Below, piece after piece: positions 12,797 to 37,537 of a DNA stretch of 37,650 bases. The stretch covers positions 1 through 37,650 of the forward strand of contig LWTL01000104.1 of NCBI GenBank assembly GCA_002101235.1, given 5' to 3'. A program made the position numbers and the translations under genes. Numbering within the stretch: position 1 is the stretch's first letter; the number at the start of each line of letters is the position of its first letter. The stretch comes from Cycloclasticus sp. symbiont of Bathymodiolus heckerae. Lineage in GTDB: Bacteria; Pseudomonadota; Gammaproteobacteria; Methylococcales; Cycloclasticaceae. Under the pieces are notes generated by a model. The model was not told where the DNA came from. It made no database searches and saw only the letters and a program-made list of their open reading frames with translations.

Positions 12797-12867
12797 GAAT
12801 ATACACAGCAGGCAAGAACGCCTACGAATGATAGCTACAGCCCTCCGCCGCTCATTGCCAATTGTTA

Positions 12868-13038
12868 AAGGTAGGTCTCCGGACTCATAAGTGGCTTGCG
12901 CCTATTTAGCACCTTCCCATATTGCAGCAATAAAGTGGTTATTAGCTAAACATTTACTTAATTACCGTTGCGGGGGCAGCGTCGGATTATAAACTTCACC
13001 GAACTTCCCTATTAAGCCTAAAAGGCACCTGTAACGTG
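12868..13038 (-). promoter_or_regulatory. Cobalamin riboswitch 1
   Basis: Read on the minus strand, the order of conserved elements is that of a cobalamin (AdoCbl-type) riboswitch: GGTGCC (13029-13024), TTAATAGGGAA, the B12 box GCTGCCCCCGCAACGGT (12980-12964) and AGTCCGGAGACCTACC near 12890-12870. It lies between a promoter at 13045-13073 and the porin gene, so binding of B12 should repress the porin-cobW-cobN-cobQ-cbiB-cobD-cysG-bluB operon. Confidence 0.95.
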
Positions 13039-13044
13039 GGGTGT

Positions 13045-13073
13045 ATTGTATGAATCACTAGGGGTAAAATCAA
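13045..13073 (-). promoter_or_regulatory. Sigma-70-type promoter of riboswitch-1 operon
   Basis: On the minus strand TTGATT (13073-13068) and TACAAT (13050-13045) are separated by exactly 17 bases. Transcription would start near 13038, right at the 5' edge of the riboswitch aptamer. Confidence 0.7.
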
Positions 13074-27728: not shown

Positions 27729-27770
27729 AAAAGAACTCCTGCGCCATCCGCGCTATAAATAACTGAAGGG

Positions 27771-27903
27771 TATTGGCTGGTCTCCGGGCTTAAAAAATAC
27801 CACTATTTTTCATTACCGTTGCGGTGGCAGCGATGGAATAACGTTTCATTAATAAACAAAAAGCGAACCATACTTCCCAATTAACCTACAAAGGAACCAA
27901 TAC
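27771..27903 (-). promoter_or_regulatory. Cobalamin riboswitch 2
   Basis: On the minus strand the outer stem TATTGG/CCAATA (27902-27897 with 27776-27771) encloses TTAATTGGGAA, the B12 box GCTGCCACCGCAACGGT (27831-27815) and AAGCCCGGAGACC. It precedes cbtB by 43 bases. A short GCGC...GCGC stem lies just before the AGGAG ribosome-binding site and could be part of the expression platform. It should repress cbtB through cobM when B12 is present. Confidence 0.95.
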
Positions 27904-27911
27904 GTTTCTTG

Positions 27912-27940
27912 ATTCTACGTCAGGAGCTAACACCATGCAA
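27912..27940 (-). promoter_or_regulatory. Sigma-70-type promoter of riboswitch-2 operon
   Basis: On the minus strand TTGCAT (27940-27935) and TAGAAT (27917-27912) are exactly 17 bases apart, placing the start at the 5' edge of riboswitch 2. It lies only 19 bases beyond the stop of the small gene at 27960. Confidence 0.7.
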
Positions 27941-27959: not shown

Positions 27960-28331
27960 TTAGAGCAACTTCTTTAAATGGTATAAATTACTGTCGACCT
28001 TCCCACCACCACTCTTCGCTTCCGGCTCATAAAGCTCAACAACCAAGCCTTTATCTGCCAAAGCTATGTTCAATTTACCTGCATAAATGGCGTTTTTAAA
28101 CGCTTTATACGGAATGTCTTTTAAGAGAAGAATCGCTTGATGCAACGAAGACAGGTCAAACACATAGCCGGTATCAACCTTGCGCAAGCCGCTATTAGAA
28201 GAAGCCAAAGTATTGGACGTATTAACGTTCTCTGCCATTAACTGTTCAAAAAAATCGATGATGTGTTTTTGTTTCTTCAAACTGTCACTTTCTGTTATCA
28301 CTCTCTGATTTTCACAGGTTACATTACTCAA
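27960..28331 (-). CDS. Small protein of unknown function downstream of the SIR2 gene
   Basis: The product (up to 123 residues) is not recognised. It has an N-terminal segment that may be helical (SLKKQKHIIDFFEQLMAEN, about 18-36), a Ser/Asn/Thr-rich stretch, and a compact C-terminal half (SSLHQAILLLKDIPYKAFKN, then IALADKGLVVELYEPE) that looks like a small alpha/beta fold. No signal peptide, membrane segment or metal motif is visible. The frame opens at TTG 28331, and a GTG at 28301 is an alternative; neither has a clear ribosome-binding site. It lies 67 bases after the SIR2 gene on the same strand and is probably cotranscribed. Nothing resembling a terminator separates it from the riboswitch-2 promoter. 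Confidence 0.6.
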   Translation of the reverse strand: MSNVTCENQRVITESDSLKKQKHIIDFFEQLMAENVNTSNTLASSNSGLRKVDTGYVFDLSSLHQAILLLKDIPYKAFKNAIYAGKLNIALADKGLVVELYEPEAKSGGGKVDSNLYHLKKLL

Positions 28332-28398: not shown

Positions 28399-31300
28399 TC
28401 ATTCAATGTGTTCTTCAAGCGCATACCGCACCTCTGGCAAGGGGTCTTTTTTCGCTTCACTTAATAATTCTGTTAATTCAACTTTATCGGGGGACACTTG
28501 AAGCAACGCCTGAGTTAACCTAGCACAATCAGCACGCACACTTGAGGCTCTAACAGACTTCATCGTATCTGTACCAATAGCGTTATAACTATACTCCTCA
28601 AAAATACGAAGGACTGACTCACCTAAACCCTCTACTTGTTCATCACTTAACAGTCTTTCATCCACCAGCCATTTAGCTGCGCTTAGCAAATACTGCAAAC
28701 CCACAACTCGCCCGGACTCTATAGTAAAAACAAGCCTTGAATATAAGCTAATAAATAGTGGGTTAACGTCAGCCCCAGCTAATATTGTCCATTGCTTTAA
28801 AGCGGTTACTGCAAAATAGACATCATCAGCTTCACCGCTTAGCAAAGCGGTACGAATGTCTTTTTCTACCTTCATAGCAGTAACTTCACTTATACCTGCA
28901 AAATAAATCCCCCCTGGGAGTGCGGCCTTAGCCCCATCAAGTTGTAAAAAAAGTTGTAATTTTTTAAATCGATCAAGTGTTTTCGCTTCGCTCGCTAATG
29001 CTGGAACAATAGCATGAGCCAGAGCATTAGCTAGGTTAGAGACCATATCCCTTCTAGTGTCCACGGCCACATCATTGTCTATATCATCGCTCTGCCACAC
29101 CACCAAATTATCAAACAAAATCTGTGCCTGCAGAGGTGTAGGTAATAGTTGCGTCTCTTTGTTGATCGCTGCATTTGCCATTCCAGAATAAAGGGTTCGA
29201 ATAGCATTAGCTTCTGGCGATGGATAGCAACGTATTTCACTCTGACTAGCCAGTAATACTGATTCATCACACGCATATAAAGAGTCGCGTATCAATTGCT
29301 CGGCCTTGTCTGCATCAGGCGATGGCAACAACAAAAAAACATGCAAATAAAGTGTTGTATTAGGCAACTTCATTTGGTCCGTTGAGTCACCCCAAATAGC
29401 ATGAGCTAATTGCTCCCTCTCAGTAACTGATAAAAAGTGAGCTTTTCTTGCTAGGGGAAGCAAACGTAACAAAGCATTACTCTTAGATTTTACATCAGTA
29501 GAACCTACCGCCTTAATTAACTCATGTATACGGGGTGCTAAACGCAGATAAGCATCGCGTGAATTAACGTTATCAACCACAGGGTTAGGCCAGCCCCTGT
29601 CAGTAACACCCTGACACTCATGTGGCAATGGGAAGGCCAACGCTTGCTCCACCAAAGTAGCTTGCTCAGTTGCAGAGATAGCTTCTAATGAAAACTGAAG
29701 TGCATGCGCTATTACTGGAATAAGCCAATGGTGTTGAAATTTAGGTTTCGCCCCCAGAGACAGCGCCAATATAAAAACCTCTTTGGCTAGCTCCGACTCC
29801 AATCGAACTGACAAGCGCGCTAGCACCTCAATAAGTACTATCAACTCTGCTAAAGCAACAACAGCATTTTTTCCACTCTCATACTGAACCGTCCAATAAT
29901 CAATAGCGCTGCGTATATATTCAACCAATGTCTTAACCACATAAACGGGAAGGCAAGCAATAGCTATACGTGAAAACTGTTTTGCTATAATAGGCGATGT
30001 TGCACTTCCGGCCGCACGTATTGCCAAAACACAATCGGCTAAACAGTTACCGCTACCACCGACTTCCAACAAGTCTCCAACTGCATTGGCAAACATATTG
30101 ACGTTAACCGCTCCGGTTACACGCAAAGGCATACCTACCTCGCGAGTAAGCCCCTCTAGTAACAAGCATACCTCTGTGTCACTGTTAAATGTTCTGTTGT
30201 TGGTATTATCTTTGTAATGGCCTTGTTGAAAACCAGGTTCAATCGGATTTTGACTTTCTTGTTGTTTTTCCTGCTCATCCTTAATTTTATTTTCGATAGA
30301 ATTGATGTGCACTTGTGGGTCGCATAACCATTCACGATAAATGCCTTCAATAAAAGGGTTCAATTTTTCAATTGAATCATCAAACCAAGAATAAGCGCGA
30401 AGCAACCTATATGCCCACTGTAACCGAGAAAGGGTGAAGACCGAATAACGGTCATGTCGGTAGTTCTGTCGTAGCTTTCCGTAAGCTTGAGCCACCAATT
30501 CTTTGGCTTCTTCATATCGCCCTAGCTCCATAACAAATAAGGCTTGCCGAAGTAGCCACACCGGGTCTTCACCTATAATATCTTCAACCACATTTTCTAT
30601 GGCTTTAAAATCAAGTTTATCTCGCGCCATTAATGCACGGTGGTAAGCTAGTTCTGCTTGGCAATCCGGCAAATACTGCGCATGTTTTTCGAGAATATGG
30701 ATAAGTCGCTCTGTGTACTGTTGCGCATTAGTCTTGGCTTCATCGCCGTCTATGTCTTGCCAGCGGCTATTTTTTAGCAATGCGAGGCATATTTCTAACT
30801 GTTGCTTTTTGCTTATCGCACATGGTGCGTCTGGGTTGGCAACGGTTAAACACTCCTCAGCTAACCACGGTTCAATATAATCAAACGTTGTATTGCGTCG
30901 CCAAATAATTTCATACAACAGTTTAGCGCAACAGTCAGCATCAAGAGCCGCCAGATTATTGGCCGAGGGACTAGGATGGCTCAATTGTGTTTTAAGCTTC
31001 CATTGCAGCGAGGGTGGACATACCAGCCAACCAGGGTAGGACTCCCTGTCGTATTTTAATTGCTCTAATTGGCCTGATAAAAGTGATGATGCATACTCCA
31101 TATCGTTATATAAACGAGAGTGATCCTTATTAGAAAAATTTTTTGGATGTAAGTCAGCTGGCCGCCATTGATGGGGCAGTGTTTTAGTTCTTTTCTCATC
31201 TTGCAAAGCCCTTAAAAATAGTTTCGTTGCCTCTTCGTGCTGCAAGTCAGTATTGTCGATGTGTTTTACAGCACTCCATAAATCAATAGGTGCAATATTA

Positions 31301-32070
31301 AGTGATTCTAAGTATTTACGCTTTGCTGCACTTAAATTGAGCGCACCCACCAAATAAATCTTTCGGGTGTGGTCTTTTAATTGATCGCGGACCCAGCCCG
31401 TCCATTGCAAAAAATTAGGGTCATCACCTGAAAAACCTAACAAACACAGTTCTTTTTCAATAAAAACTTGTCGTACAAAATTGACAAAGGGGGCGAAATT
31501 CGTTGGGTATTTTCGGTAATCTTCTTCAGCTGCAATCAACGTATCTGTAATACCGATAGTACCGTGCAATTTAACAATTCTTGGGGATTCCGCCCACGTT
31601 AAATCACTTGTTTTAGTTACGGGGGTGTAATAAGGGCTATGGATGTTTTCCGCAGCTTGCTCCAATAAAGTATCCCAGTTTGTGGTCATGATTTCCGACC
31701 ACGGTAATTTTAATAATGACGTATAAATAACACCTGTTGCCCAAACTTCATTATTCACCAAGGTGCGGATTTCATCATTTAACGCCGCTGAGCCAAAAGA
31801 AGCCCGATATTCTTCAGCAATACGCAATGGGTTCGAGAAATTCAGCTCTGGTGAATCTGGACTAGTCTTTTCAAGCAAGCGTCTACTTAACGCATCCCAT
31901 AGTGGCATCCGTATTTCTTTGTTTATATGTACTGCTGCACTTCGGCTAAACCCTGCGCCTATCATAATGGCTGCACCTTGCTCGTTAGCATTAAACTGAT
32001 GTAATGCAGCCGCTAGCTTTTTTATTGCCGGATAATCTGACAGTTTTTTTACACTTGAATCCATTGGCAT
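28399..32070 (-). CDS. Large SIR2-domain protein with helical-repeat C-terminus (candidate defence NADase)
   Basis: Residues about 30-280 form a SIR2-like domain: IGAGFSRSA (37-45), TTNWDTLLEQA with N131, VKLHGT with H169, and LLGFSGDDPNFLQW (about 210-223). Asn and His are the catalytic pair of SIR2 NAD-consuming domains. The remaining 900 or so residues are Ala/Leu-rich helices with TPR- or HEAT-like spacing (for example VMELGRYEEAKELVAQAYGK) and no transmembrane segment. The overall design resembles defence-associated sirtuins, which sense phage and deplete NAD+. That function is inference; no phage-related or HerA-like partner lies nearby, only the small gene downstream. AAGGA precedes the start. 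It interrupts an otherwise B12-only locus, which suggests insertion. Confidence 0.85.
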   Translation of the reverse strand: MPMDSSVKKLSDYPAIKKLAAALHQFNANEQGAAIMIGAGFSRSAAVHINKEIRMPLWDALSRRLLEKTSPDSPELNFSNPLRIAEEYRASFGSAALNDEIRTLVNNEVWATGVIYTSLLKLPWSEIMTTNWDTLLEQAAENIHSPYYTPVTKTSDLTWAESPRIVKLHGTIGITDTLIAAEEDYRKYPTNFAPFVNFVRQVFIEKELCLLGFSGDDPNFLQWTGWVRDQLKDHTRKIYLVGALNLSAAKRKYLESLNIAPIDLWSAVKHIDNTDLQHEEATKLFLRALQDEKRTKTLPHQWRPADLHPKNFSNKDHSRLYNDMEYASSLLSGQLEQLKYDRESYPGWLVCPPSLQWKLKTQLSHPSPSANNLAALDADCCAKLLYEIIWRRNTTFDYIEPWLAEECLTVANPDAPCAISKKQQLEICLALLKNSRWQDIDGDEAKTNAQQYTERLIHILEKHAQYLPDCQAELAYHRALMARDKLDFKAIENVVEDIIGEDPVWLLRQALFVMELGRYEEAKELVAQAYGKLRQNYRHDRYSVFTLSRLQWAYRLLRAYSWFDDSIEKLNPFIEGIYREWLCDPQVHINSIENKIKDEQEKQQESQNPIEPGFQQGHYKDNTNNRTFNSDTEVCLLLEGLTREVGMPLRVTGAVNVNMFANAVGDLLEVGGSGNCLADCVLAIRAAGSATSPIIAKQFSRIAIACLPVYVVKTLVEYIRSAIDYWTVQYESGKNAVVALAELIVLIEVLARLSVRLESELAKEVFILALSLGAKPKFQHHWLIPVIAHALQFSLEAISATEQATLVEQALAFPLPHECQGVTDRGWPNPVVDNVNSRDAYLRLAPRIHELIKAVGSTDVKSKSNALLRLLPLARKAHFLSVTEREQLAHAIWGDSTDQMKLPNTTLYLHVFLLLPSPDADKAEQLIRDSLYACDESVLLASQSEIRCYPSPEANAIRTLYSGMANAAINKETQLLPTPLQAQILFDNLVVWQSDDIDNDVAVDTRRDMVSNLANALAHAIVPALASEAKTLDRFKKLQLFLQLDGAKAALPGGIYFAGISEVTAMKVEKDIRTALLSGEADDVYFAVTALKQWTILAGADVNPLFISLYSRLVFTIESGRVVGLQYLLSAAKWLVDERLLSDEQVEGLGESVLRIFEEYSYNAIGTDTMKSVRASSVRADCARLTQALLQVSPDKVELTELLSEAKKDPLPEVRYALEEHIE

Positions 32071-32319
32071 TTTTATCGTTTCCTTACATAAAAGTTATTT
32101 AATTCAAAATCAATAGGTTTTGTCAGGCTTGAGGTATATGTTACTCCATCTACTTATACTTCATTTATGCAGCAACTCACTCCTAGCATAATTGACTAAT
32201 AACCATCTATGTTCTGCACAGTGCTGTCACCAATCCTCTTCAGCAAAAAACAACGCCTTCGTACACTCAAACACTTAGCTTTGTTATGATACTGTTTTTG
32301 CCAATATGCCACACTCACT

Positions 32320-32850
32320 ATGATTCAACTCGTCCTCGGCGGCGCTCGTTCTGGTAAAAGCCAATACGCCGAACAACAAGCCAGCCGCACCGACAAAACT
32401 GTTTTTTACATTGCTACCGCTACTGCGGCCGACAATGAAATGAGCGAACGCATACAGCAGCACCAGCAACAACGCCCTGAACATTGGACAACTGTTGAAG
32501 AAACCCACCATTTAGCGGCCGTTTTACAACAATACGCAAAGCCGAATCGCACCTTATTAATAGATTGTTTAACGCTTTGGCTAAGCAATATTTTGTTTAC
32601 ATCCACCGGTGAAACTGACGAAGCCTGCTTTAAAGCCGAAACAGCGGCGTTATTAAAAATATTGCCTACTTTGGCGGGTAATATTATTTTAGTGTCCAAC
32701 GAAGTGGGCCAAGGCACAACGCCAATGAACGCAATGGCTAGACGCTTTATTGATGAAGCAGGAAAGCTACACCAACAAATTGCCGAATGCAGCGACCAAG
32801 TTACTTTTGTGACTGCGGGGCTTCCTCAGCAATTGAAACAAACGTCATGA
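32320..32850 (+). CDS. cobU: Adenosylcobinamide kinase / adenosylcobinamide-phosphate guanylyltransferase CobU/CobP
   Basis: CobU phosphorylates adenosylcobinamide and forms adenosylcobinamide-GDP. The 176-residue protein has the P-loop LVLGGARSGKSQYAE at its N-terminus, the guanylylated-His region EHWTTVEETHHL, LIDCLTLWLSN and LVSNEVGQGTTP. It starts the plus-strand cobU-cobT-cobC-cobS group. The 249 bases upstream, shared with the divergent SIR2 gene, hold no riboswitch. A TATGAT at 32285-32290 could be a -10 box, but no good -35 is present. Confidence 0.95.
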   Translation: MIQLVLGGARSGKSQYAEQQASRTDKTVFYIATATAADNEMSERIQQHQQQRPEHWTTVEETHHLAAVLQQYAKPNRTLLIDCLTLWLSNILFTSTGETDEACFKAETAALLKILPTLAGNIILVSNEVGQGTTPMNAMARRFIDEAGKLHQQIAECSDQVTFVTAGLPQQLKQTS

Positions 32851-33875
32851 ACTGGATTAATGAGGCCATTCAAAAGCCCTGCCGCGCATCGCTAGAAAAA
32901 GCGCAAGCGCGACAAAGCGTGCTTACCAAGCCCGCGGGTTCACTGGGTTATTTGGAAGGTATTGCAACTCGCCTTGCCTCATTACAAGCTTGCCAAAAAC
33001 CTTCGTTAGATAAAGCGCACATCACCATTTTTGCCGCCGACCACGGCATTGCAAACGAAGGGGTTTCTGCGTTTCCACAAGCGGTAACAAAAGCCATGGT
33101 GGCTAATTTTGCATCGGGCGGCGCTGCCATTAGTGTGCTGGCAAAAGTGCATAACGCTTCGTTGGAAATTATTAATGTAGGCGTTGTCGATTGCTCAACC
33201 GATGGCGTTCTTCACCAGCCCGTTGCTAACGGCACAGCAAGCTTCGTTCAACAAGCGGCGATGACGCCTGAACAGCTTACCCAAGCTTTAAGCGTTGGCA
33301 AACAGGCCATCGAACGTATTTCCCAAGCCGATGTATTTATTGGTGGCGAAATGGGCATTGCAAACACCACCAGCGCAAGTGCTTTGGCTTGCGCCATTTT
33401 AGGCAGCCCTGCCGAACAATTGGTCGGCGCGGGCACTGGTCTAAACCAACAAGGCATTAATAAAAAACAACAACTTATTGAAAAGGCTTTAGAGCTGCAC
33501 AAAGCTCATTTGAATAGCCCTTTAAGCATTTTGCAGCACTTAGGCGGCTTTGAAATTACCGCGCTCGTTGCTGCTTATATTCGTTGCGGCCAACTCGGCA
33601 TACCCGTTATTATTGATGGTTTTATTAGCACAGTAGCCGCATTAATCGCTGTACGCATACATCCGTCATTAAACGATTGGTTCTTTTACGGACATCAATC
33701 AGAAGAGTTCGGCCACCAACATGTACTTAGCGCATTAAACGCACGCCCTATTTTAAATTTAGCGATGCGCTTAGGTGAAGGCAGTGGTGCGGCAACCGCA
33801 CTACCTATTCTTCGCGCCGCTTGCGAACTGCACAACAACATGGCTACCTTTGAAGAAGCAGGTATTTCAGCATGA
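32847..33875 (+). CDS. cobT: Nicotinate-nucleotide-dimethylbenzimidazole phosphoribosyltransferase CobT
   Basis: CobT activates the BluB product to alpha-ribazole phosphate using nicotinate mononucleotide. I start it at the ATG 32847 (MNWINEAIQK), which overlaps the cobU stop in an ATGA arrangement; the open frame extends 20 codons further upstream into cobU. The 342-residue protein has KPAGSLGYLEGIA, FAADHGIANEGVSAFPQAVT, GEMGIANTTSASAL and the catalytic-glutamate region RLGEGSGAATALPIL. Length and motifs are normal. This CobT is unrelated to the Pseudomonas chelatase subunit of the same name. Confidence 0.95.
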   Translation: MNWINEAIQKPCRASLEKAQARQSVLTKPAGSLGYLEGIATRLASLQACQKPSLDKAHITIFAADHGIANEGVSAFPQAVTKAMVANFASGGAAISVLAKVHNASLEIINVGVVDCSTDGVLHQPVANGTASFVQQAAMTPEQLTQALSVGKQAIERISQADVFIGGEMGIANTTSASALACAILGSPAEQLVGAGTGLNQQGINKKQQLIEKALELHKAHLNSPLSILQHLGGFEITALVAAYIRCGQLGIPVIIDGFISTVAALIAVRIHPSLNDWFFYGHQSEEFGHQHVLSALNARPILNLAMRLGEGSGAATALPILRAACELHNNMATFEEAGISA

Positions 33876-34465
33876 GCCTAACCATTGATTTACTGCGCCA
33901 TGGTGAAGTAGCCGGTGGCTTAAAACTACGCGGCAATGTCGACGACCCTTTAAGTGATAAAGGTTGGCAACAAATGCGCCACGTCACCCGTGGGGAAAGC
34001 TTACCGTGGGAACAGATCATCACCTCACCCCTACAACGCTGCGCTTTATTTGCTGAAGAATTATCTCAGCGCACAACAACGCCTTTAACGACGAATAGCG
34101 GCTTCAAAGAAATTAGTTTTGGTGATTGGGAAGGGCAATTTATAAGCACTTTGTACGAAAAGCACCCACAAGACATGCAGGACTTTTGGAATAACCCCGA
34201 GCAAATAACACCGCCCAATGGCGAACCTTACGTGCTATTTGAAAAGCGTATAAAAAAGGCATGGCAACAGCTAATAGAAAGTAACGATGCCGAGCACATT
34301 TTACTGGTCGCGCATGGCGGCGTTATTCGTGCTATTTTCAAGATAATACTGGCCTTACCGATTCAATCCTTTTTCAGTATTGATGTACCACATGCAGGGT
34401 TAAGCCGAATTATTATTGAAGAAGGCACTGCCCGCATTGGCTTTATTAATGGGCAATTATCATGA
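33872..34465 (+). CDS. cobC: Alpha-ribazole phosphatase-like histidine phosphatase CobC
   Basis: This histidine-phosphatase family member is thought to remove the 5'-phosphate from alpha-ribazole phosphate or adenosylcobalamin phosphate. The 197-residue protein has the phospho-acceptor motif DLLRHGEVAGG near the N-terminus, LRGNVDDPLSDKGWQQM, TSPLQRCALFAEEL and the second catalytic His in LLVAHGGVIRAIFK. It overlaps cobT and cobS by 4 bases each, which supports the B12 assignment over a general phosphoglycerate-mutase-like role. Confidence 0.9.
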   Translation: MSLTIDLLRHGEVAGGLKLRGNVDDPLSDKGWQQMRHVTRGESLPWEQIITSPLQRCALFAEELSQRTTTPLTTNSGFKEISFGDWEGQFISTLYEKHPQDMQDFWNNPEQITPPNGEPYVLFEKRIKKAWQQLIESNDAEHILLVAHGGVIRAIFKIILALPIQSFFSIDVPHAGLSRIIIEEGTARIGFINGQLS

Positions 34466-35184
34466 ATGCTTTCCTTTTAGCACTACAGTTCCTCACTCGC
34501 ATACCTATTCCCTTCGCCGTTGAGCCAACACCTAAAAACTTAGGCGACTCTGTTCTTTACTACCCACTTATTGGCGCTATTATTGGCTTCTTTTTATTCG
34601 CTGCGGCACACCTATTAGCCGATGTCGACACCCTTCTATCTGCCGCTTTAATATTAACCTTATGGATTGGGCTAACGGGTGGCTTACATTTAGATGGCAT
34701 AGCAGACTGTGTGGATGGCTGGATCGGCGGCCAAGGAAATATAGAAAAATCGTTACACATTATGAAGGACCCTAATGCCGGGCCTATGGGCGTAACCGCG
34801 CTTGTTTTATTGTTGTTATTAAAATATGCCGCATTAACCGTACTACTGAACAACAATGCGCTCAGCATTCTACTGATTGCCCCCATTATTGGCAGAGCCA
34901 GTGTTCTGTTTTTAATGATTAGCACAAACTATATAAGAGCAAACGGCCTTGCTGAAACGATGATAAAAAACCTGCCGCGCAATAAAGCTACGGTCATCGT
35001 TTTAATCGTCATAATACTTTATATATTGATTGCCAATATCTGGTCCGCCCTACTTTTAACCTTATTTGCCTGCTTCCTTAGACATCTATTCATCAGTCTT
35101 TTTAACGGAATAACAGGCGATATGCTTGGTGCATCAGTCGAACTGAATGGACTGGCCATTCTACTTATAGCAGCACTTCTTTAA
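34462..35184 (+). CDS. cobS: Adenosylcobinamide-GDP ribazoletransferase (cobalamin synthase) CobS/CobV
   Basis: This integral membrane enzyme joins adenosylcobinamide-GDP to alpha-ribazole, the last assembly step. The 240-residue protein shows ALQFLTRIPIP at the N-terminus, the conserved metal/substrate motif LHLDGIADCVDGW, MKDPNAGPMG and several hydrophobic helices. NGITGDMLGASVELN near the C-terminus is also characteristic. It ends the plus-strand group and is convergent with the recombinase remnant. Between them (35241-35273) an imperfect hairpin GCCTAAAACG / CGTTTTCAGGC is visible without a T-run. Confidence 0.94.
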   Translation: MNAFLLALQFLTRIPIPFAVEPTPKNLGDSVLYYPLIGAIIGFFLFAAAHLLADVDTLLSAALILTLWIGLTGGLHLDGIADCVDGWIGGQGNIEKSLHIMKDPNAGPMGVTALVLLLLLKYAALTVLLNNNALSILLIAPIIGRASVLFLMISTNYIRANGLAETMIKNLPRNKATVIVLIVIILYILIANIWSALLLTLFACFLRHLFISLFNGITGDMLGASVELNGLAILLIAALL

Positions 35185-35310: not shown

Positions 35311-35826
35311 TCATACGTCTAATTTCAATTTACGCTTCACGTCGAGCGGCAAGTGAGCAATGGATCGCTTAACAACCTCATCTATATTCATTTGAGCACA
35401 TCTCTCAACCTCTTTTGTCTTGTCCTGTAATTCTTTGACCAGTTCGCCTTTGCGGCGCGTATTCAATCCATTGCGGACTTTTGACAATCGGTTGTTCTTG
35501 GCATCTTCAAGCTTCTGGTTTACCTCGTTCAAGTGAACGGTAAGGGCATTTGAGTAGCCCGCACTGCCGAATAGAGGTTGAGGATTGATGCCAACCATCC
35601 TAGCTACTTCCGCCTTTGTAATCTGATAATCGGATTTCTTCTTGTACTGACTCTTCAGTGAATGACTACGAATAAAGCGCTTTTTCTGCTTGCGGAACGA
35701 ATCAATAGCCTCGAAAGCCTTCAGCGAATTATTCTTATTACTTACCCATGCGGGAAACACCTTCGCGTCATCCGCCGGCAAATCATTTTGACCAATGAAC
35801 TGATCCAGATAGTTATCATCTGACAT
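35311..35826 (-). CDS. Tn554 TnpC-like coiled-coil accessory protein
   Basis: I start this at ATG 35826 (MSDDNYLDQF, 171 residues), one base after the upstream recombinase stop; GAGG lies about 8 bases before it. A longer frame would run back into the recombinase gene. A central helix-turn-helix-like part (ITKAEVARMVGINPQPLFG) is followed by a charged, probably coiled-coil region (LNEVNQKLEDAKNNR and RKGELVKELQDKTKEVERC). This layout is like the small accessory proteins encoded after paired tyrosine recombinases in Tn554-type elements. The family assignment is by architecture and position only. Confidence 0.6.
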   Translation of the reverse strand: MSDDNYLDQFIGQNDLPADDAKVFPAWVSNKNNSLKAFEAIDSFRKQKKRFIRSHSLKSQYKKKSDYQITKAEVARMVGINPQPLFGSAGYSNALTVHLNEVNQKLEDAKNNRLSKVRNGLNTRRKGELVKELQDKTKEVERCAQMNIDEVVKRSIAHLPLDVKRKLKLDV

Positions 35827-35827
35827 A

Positions 35828-37537
35828 TCAGGCCTCATCAGAGTAAAGGGAGGAGATAACCAGCGTTTCCTTAAGGTGTCCAATGAAAGCATCGTACTTA
35901 GCATTGCCGCTGTTGTGCCTTAGCTGCTCGACCCTCTTTAAAGCTATTTTCACCGTTTGAATATGCGGCTCCTTTATGAACGCAGGCAATTTTGGATTCC
36001 TACACACAGCCACGTCGCGTTTTATATAAATAACGATACCTAGGTAGTTACCTTCCGAGACATCAGCATTAACGCAGCCGAGACAAAGTCGGGGCTTAGC
36101 CGTTATTCGTTTTGGCACCCCATCCACAGAACAGCGAGCCTGTTTCTCAGTACCTTCTCTTAAAACACACGTACCCCAAGCATTAGGCTTTATGTCGATA
36201 ACTTTTTCACCTGAAATTCGATGTGCCAACTGTTCGTGTTCTTGATCAGAAACCACCTTAGTCATACGCACGGCCTTTGATAGGTAACGGTCAAACCCAC
36301 CAGCATACTCTCGTTTCTCGTCTGTTATTGCCATAATGTGTTGACGCACCATACCGTTGATTACAGTCCGGGTTGCTACCTGATAGACAGCTAGCGTCTC
36401 CTTGTCTCGGAGATAGTTCATGAAAAACCGTTCATCCAAGTGCTTAAAATTGGCACGGATGAACTTGCCCACGTCGCCCCTATAGCGCACGAGTACAGCC
36501 TCAGCCCAAACATGACGAAAAGCATGTGCCGATGGGTAGACCATACCCGCAGTCAATTCATTAGAAAGTGCGCGCACGGTGGCCATGCTAAAGTCATGGC
36601 CGCCAGAGGCAAGCTTCTCTTTAGTTTCTTCTGAAAACGCTGTGTCCAGTATTTTCGTCTGTTCAATATTAAGCGTTCCTTCTGCGTAAGCCTTATACAT
36701 CTCTGAACTGTGGCTGTAGGTACTGTCATATATGTGCGTGTGCAAGATATAGAACTTTGGTAAATCTCTTTGAAGGGTATTACGAATATCCGTTAGCCGG
36801 CGTAATTCACTATTTAAATATTTCGAGTTTAAGGTATCTAAACGTTTAAATAACTCATAATTGTTAACAAAGTCACTCCATAAGATGGATACACGACAAC
36901 TCACACTGACTGAAGAGTTAGCCGAACCTTTTGCCACCGTCCTGAGCTGACTATACAGCGCTGGTGACGTTGACTGACTAAAGTTTAGCTCGTTAAGCAT
37001 GTATATTAACAGGTAGCCTTGAGAAGTGATTTCACGCTCAACAAGCGTTGATCCACTGGTCTTAGGAACCATCCATTCAACAATAAACCGTATCGGAGTG
37101 TAGAGGTTATCTAGTACTTCAGAATTTACTGATGCTTTTACATCAGACAAAGAAAAGCCATACTCACTACGACGCCAACCAGTCAACCCTACAAAATAAG
37201 TAACGCCAGCACTCTCAATATAATGAGTTACAGAGCGAATATGCAGTATGCCCAAGTTTCTTTTACGTAACGACTTTGGTGCCTTTCCGATTTCTTCCAA
37301 TAAGAAACTTTGAATAGTTTTTAAGTTATTAGGTAACGTATGAGAATGTTTTTCAATAACTTCCAGACACAACTTCAAAAAATCTTCAACATTAGGTGAA
37401 AGTGAAACTCCTTCTGAATTTAACGCAGATTCATACTCCCGAAATACCTGCCCAAGCGTTTTTCCATAACTAGTAATGTAATGACTCATTAAAAACGAAC
37501 GAATAAACTCTTGCGTATCAAATTGAGCTGCCACCAC
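35828..37537 (-). CDS. Tyrosine recombinase, Tn554 TnpB-like, probably 5'-truncated
   Basis: The frame of up to 569 residues carries tyrosine-recombinase motifs: motif I Arg in GLTGWRRSEYGFSL (R122 or R123), a basic hairpin near 150-170, HAFRH (H338, R341), and the likely nucleophile in FFMNYLRDK (Y375). About 190 residues follow the nucleophile, with LCLGCVNAD and several cysteines, as in large recombinases of Tn554-like elements. The first codons (GTG at 37537) lie inside the IS3 end at 37524-37578, so the authentic start and probably part of the DNA-binding domain are lost; an ATG at 37489 (MSHYITSYGK) is another possible start. It precedes the TnpC-like gene by 1 base. Confidence 0.7.
   Translation of the reverse strand: MVAAQFDTQEFIRSFLMSHYITSYGKTLGQVFREYESALNSEGVSLSPNVEDFLKLCLEVIEKHSHTLPNNLKTIQSFLLEEIGKAPKSLRKRNLGILHIRSVTHYIESAGVTYFVGLTGWRRSEYGFSLSDVKASVNSEVLDNLYTPIRFIVEWMVPKTSGSTLVEREITSQGYLLIYMLNELNFSQSTSPALYSQLRTVAKGSANSSVSVSCRVSILWSDFVNNYELFKRLDTLNSKYLNSELRRLTDIRNTLQRDLPKFYILHTHIYDSTYSHSSEMYKAYAEGTLNIEQTKILDTAFSEETKEKLASGGHDFSMATVRALSNELTAGMVYPSAHAFRHVWAEAVLVRYRGDVGKFIRANFKHLDERFFMNYLRDKETLAVYQVATRTVINGMVRQHIMAITDEKREYAGGFDRYLSKAVRMTKVVSDQEHEQLAHRISGEKVIDIKPNAWGTCVLREGTEKQARCSVDGVPKRITAKPRLCLGCVNADVSEGNYLGIVIYIKRDVAVCRNPKLPAFIKEPHIQTVKIALKRVEQLRHNSGNAKYDAFIGHLKETLVISSLYSDEA

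Follow-up and report, generated by a model that had tools for sequence, protein, structure and literature searches.

The window, which is the whole stretch of DNA analysed here, is one complete contig of 37,650 bases. Its minus strand carries, in order, a gene for a large SIR2-domain protein, a 123-amino acid ORF, a cobalamin riboswitch, cbtB and cbtA, while divergent from the SIR2 gene on its other side are cobU, cobT, a histidine phosphatase gene (cobC) and cobS (Table 1). The initial annotation had set the SIR2 gene between the riboswitch-2 genes and cobUTCS, a placement which was borne out, and both riboswitches are real. Since the second of these follows the SIR2 gene and the 123-amino acid ORF and precedes cbtBA, its position is not one from which it would control the SIR2 gene. 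Beyond cobS two further minus-strand ORFs (35311-35904 and 35828-37537) show no significant Pfam family.

The SIR2 ORF contains no internal stops. Codon usage marks both it (0.195 bits per codon) and the 123-amino acid ORF (0.234) as coding-like, on a scale where the other genes of the window range from 0.014 to 0.419 and spurious ORFs do not exceed 0.040. The GC3 of the SIR2 gene (0.361) lies inside the range of the window genes (0.327-0.505), and the composition is therefore not telling. Around the gene there is no tRNA that would mark the border of a mobile element and no convincing flanking repeat, and no other recognisable defence gene was found elsewhere in the 37,650-nt window.

Table 1. 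Coordinates of the SIR2 gene, its domains and the surrounding features in the window
Feature	Position	Strand	Remarks
First cobalamin riboswitch	12853-13047	-	
Second cobalamin riboswitch, upstream of cbtBA (cobalt uptake)	27758..27916	-	context only
123-aa ORF, orphan	27960..28331	-	TTG start, same strand, 67 bp after SIR2 stop
SIR2-domain protein, divergent PADLOC/NCBIfam Dsr2 family member	28399..32070	-	1223 aa, ATG start
C-terminal helical region, HEAT/ARM-like solenoid, presumed sensor	28402..31203	-	residues 290-1223
N-terminal SIR2 (NADase-type) domain	31201..32070	-	about residues 1-290; N131, D133, H169
Divergent intergenic region, SIR2 to cobU	32071..32319	.	similarity to sister genome G016 ends 32237

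Domains, fold and family of the SIR2 protein

Pfam SIR2_2 (PF13289) matches residues 126-262 of the protein [E 4.3e-23], and the two catalytic motifs are present, N131 within TTNWD and H169 within KLHG. AlphaFold, with one plasmid row left out of the alignment, modelled residues 1-625 (the SIR2 domain plus a middle region) with a pLDDT of 90.1, and residues 290-1223 as almost all helix (pLDDT 91.8, pTM 0.92). ORF, Pfam and AlphaFold agree with the initial annotation of a 1223-residue SIR2 protein with N131, H169 and a long helical tail.

The top fold match of residues 1-625 is B. subtilis DSR2 [Z about 30; 265-270 residues at 2.2 A], followed by ThsA [Z 26.8; 264 residues at 2.5 A], KomC, SPARSA, Avs5 and SIR2-HerA; the Sir2 homologue 1m2k stands at rank 50 [Z 13.9]. 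Alignments to DSR2 span up to 466 residues and run on into the middle region (8y3m, rmsd 6.6 A), with the Z score carried by the SIR2 domain. As modelled, the SIR2 domain has a DSR2/ThsA-like fold. The initial annotation had proposed a fold search of the C-terminal region against DSR1/DSR2 and other SIR2 defence proteins; the PDB matches listed for this region were many HEAT/ARM solenoids, generic and with no stand-out, and among viral proteins there was no useful match. DSR2 did not appear among the PDB matches listed, although the region may still have a fold like that of DSR2.

Although it shares the SIR2 fold with Thoeris ThsA, the window protein has a far longer, all-helical C-terminal region and no SLOG domain by Pfam, and no TIR (ThsB) partner was seen among the scanned neighbours. 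A SIR2 NADase effector domain is likewise common to SIR2-HerA (Nezha), SPARSA, Avs5 and KomC, but no HerA, Argonaute, STAND or Kom partner was recognised at the window locus, where the neighbours of the SIR2 gene are an orphan ORF, cbtB/cbtA and cobU, with no adjacent HerA helicase as in SIR2-HerA.

Two family models named Dsr2 cover nearly the whole protein. The PADLOC model (PDLC02184) aligns with residues 30-1137 (model positions 22-1131 of 1222; E 2e-131), and NCBIfam NF041819 with residues 31-1191 (positions 18-1182 of 1215) at 442 bits, which does not reach the NCBIfam equivalog cut-off of 1400 bits. Because the score lies so far below this cut-off, the protein is a divergent superfamily relative rather than an equivalog, and function need not transfer to it. 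With the proteins of these models it has in common the SIR2 N-terminus, an alignment over some 1200 residues and the single-gene arrangement, whereas it belongs to a separate, mostly proteobacterial branch scoring below the cut-off. To our knowledge no member of this branch has been tested experimentally.

The relation to the solved B. subtilis DSR2 (8wkt and others) is of a different kind. Both proteins combine SIR2 and a long helical region in one chain, and both have the SIR2 fold and the N/H catalytic pair, but the C-terminal region of the window protein has no detectable sequence relation to that of the solved protein. A C-terminal profile of the window family matched no DSR2 chain in the PDB and, against the C-terminal region of a Priestia DSR2, gave an hhalign probability of 4.5%. 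This Priestia protein of 983 amino acids (L150 3812-6760) is orthologous to the DSR2 of B. subtilis whose structure is solved (1254 bits, full length), yet it matches neither PADLOC Dsr2 nor NCBIfam Dsr2, both of which match the relatives of the window protein. Judged by these comparisons, 'DSR2' is a name shared by two C-terminal families which are mutually unmatched in sequence. The comparison with DSR2 raised in the initial annotation is upheld for the SIR2 domain, and in the C-terminal region no sequence relation is detected. B. subtilis DSR2, whose catalytic residues are N133/H171, is activated by a phage tail tube protein (PMC11087589; PMC10973363); given the two families, annotation of a protein as Dsr2 is no ground for expecting this trigger.

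Relatives and their genomic settings

When one genome was scanned for each species, at least 399 relatives of the SIR2 protein emerged; most are proteobacterial, and the rest include sequences from Acidobacteriota, Chloroflexota, Nitrospirota and further phyla. The best 80 of these were fetched, and among them the highest identity is 52% over the full length. In the tree the window protein falls in a mostly betaproteobacterial clade. Over the 81 aligned sequences N131 and D133, both part of the search pattern, are present in all, and H169, which lies outside the pattern, is kept in 80; the catalytic residues, whose loss in the family would have counted against a defence role in the initial annotation, are thus conserved. 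The lone exception at H169 is a SAR202 sequence (L114) with N instead of the catalytic H. The C-terminal region closes with a DPLPEVR motif, of which LPEVR (residues 1211-1215 of the window protein) is near-invariant among the 78 relatives which reach that point (P 78/78, E 77/78, R 77/78). The gene was not found in any of the 17 other genomes of the genus, and occurs in 5 of 311 genomes of the order.

Relatives are found in mobile DNA. Some lie within IMG/VR proviruses, one is in a phage genome record, and others are borne on plasmids of Ideonella, Rhizobium, Methylorubrum, Priestia and Brevibacillus, where some copies adjoin TIR, caspase-like, second SIR2 and transposase/IS genes. Three relatives stand as single genes, as prophage cargo, amid provirus head or terminase genes (L024, L026 and L028, the neighbours of the last appearing Mu-like when read by eye). 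A 47%-identical provirus relative (L025 8001-10972) is cut short and followed by what by eye is an IS3-type transposase-like ORF pair.

Other relatives are associated with defence genes. In Cricetibacter (L048 7699-17076) a type I-C cas operon encloses the relative, which separates cas3 from cas8c/cas7c, and in Bibersteinia (L052 7679-17004) ORFs of similar size flank it in the same positions, apparently the same cas arrangement. Cas3c, Cas8c and Cas7c were each matched by two members in a survey of 130 ORFs around relatives, a survey which has no matched random-locus control. The Mesopusillimonas relative (L044) has a DrmD-like helicase on one side and a type III methyltransferase on the other, and a 51%-identical Methylococcaceae relative follows hsdR-hsdM-hsdS-like genes (hsdS recognized by search, the others by size and order). 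Some relatives, such as that of the complete genome G228, have no adjoining defence gene.

The 123-residue ORF, the cobalamin genes and locus history

The initial annotation had raised a pairing of the SIR2 gene with the 123-residue ORF, and the two might form a two-gene defence or toxin-antitoxin-like operon in which the small protein is partner, activator or inhibitor. They share a strand, are 67 bp apart and are both coding-like, and the small protein has a weak ZorC-like match (ZorC positions 373-422; 17.8 bits; E 2.8e-4). However, no homologue of it was found in 101 relative loci, on plasmids, in viral contigs, in 60 relatives or in 321 genomes of the class. As it is found nowhere else there is no conserved pair, and we regard such an operon as unlikely; the ORF is most likely an accessory or orphan gene of no relation to the SIR2 gene.

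That the protein is a SIR2 enzyme with a housekeeping role in NAD metabolism or protein acylation, and not one of defence, is very unlikely. The SIR2 domain is indeed common to deacylases, but here the nearest folds are defence NADases, with 1m2k far down the ranking, the relatives have a patchy, mobile distribution, and the matching family model is the anti-phage Dsr2.

The cobalamin surroundings of the gene were examined by tblastn of 28 proteins of the window's B12 region against the 101 relative loci. None matched, and the same queries matched 26/26 cbtA/cobU control loci; nor are there B12 genes near the SIR2 copies of three order-mates. Homologues of the protein are thus not tied to B12 genes, a tie which, together with absence from defence islands, the initial annotation had held would speak against defence; on this search the B12 link was rejected. 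The speculative connection of NAD and NaMN chemistry to CobT put forward there, a cobalamin-linked sirtuin working beside that enzyme (Salmonella CobB was once reportedly able to replace CobT), has the position between riboswitch/cbtBA and cobUTCS as its sole support, and is extremely improbable in view of the 101 loci with their positive controls, an intact adjoining CobT [DBI_PRT; E 7e-122], a sister genome (G016) keeping cobUTCS without the SIR2 gene, a SIR2_2 protein with about 930 extra residues, and a riboswitch downstream of the gene.

Comparison with G016 bears on the history of the locus. Its cobUTCS genes show 91% nucleotide identity over exactly 32237 to 35184 of the window and adjoin rpmH/yidC-type genes (read by eye); the SIR2 gene is situated at a point where gene order differs between the sister genomes. 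Elsewhere in G016 (C68, L158; 9188-19342) decayed porin-cobN-bluB fragments, with 80-88% nucleotide identity to the window, immediately adjoin type I restriction-modification genes, so that the loss of B12 genes and the gain of defence genes coincide at this locus. Because cbtA is absent in the genus, a newly acquired B12 island had at first been considered, an idea weakened by these decayed pieces, since loss explains at least the porin-cobN-bluB part. From these sequences, it is more probable that G016 has lost the de novo synthesis of B12 than that the window genome has newly gained it.

A probable divergent defence protein of the Dsr2 kind

Because its relatives occur in prophages and beside defence genes and never with B12 genes, we consider the protein a divergent defence protein of known kind and not a B12 enzyme. 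Very probably it is a defence-associated sirtuin of the Dsr2 kind, encoded by a single gene and acting by abortive infection, whose location among B12 genes is incidental. The full-length Dsr2 match, the catalytic residues, the fold and the mobile and defence settings all accord with the stand-alone, NAD-depleting protein which the initial annotation envisaged. It is from sequence, fold and context that we infer the NADase activity, autoinhibition, tetramer, phage trigger and cell outcome.

In the healthy cell the helical C-terminal region would keep the SIR2 domain inactive. On sensing some component of the phage, which is probably a protein, this region would release the N-terminal NADase, so that NAD+ would be hydrolysed and phage growth would stop; the protein may act as a tetramer. 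The large protein thus probably destroys the NAD of the cell on phage attack.

More tentatively, the window protein may represent a large single-gene SIR2 defence branch with its own sensor, which ends in DPLPEVR and would recognise some part of the phage that is not the tail tube. Certain copies could serve as a back-up killing arm within operons of type I-C CRISPR and of type I/III restriction; this wider proposal is possible, and we do not hold it as the expected outcome.

The tempting link between NAD and B12 is removed here as unsupported, and the name Dsr2 alone does not carry with it activation by the tail tube as in B. subtilis DSR2. The Dsr2-kind reading of this gene adds a widespread divergent branch to the SIR2 defence proteins.
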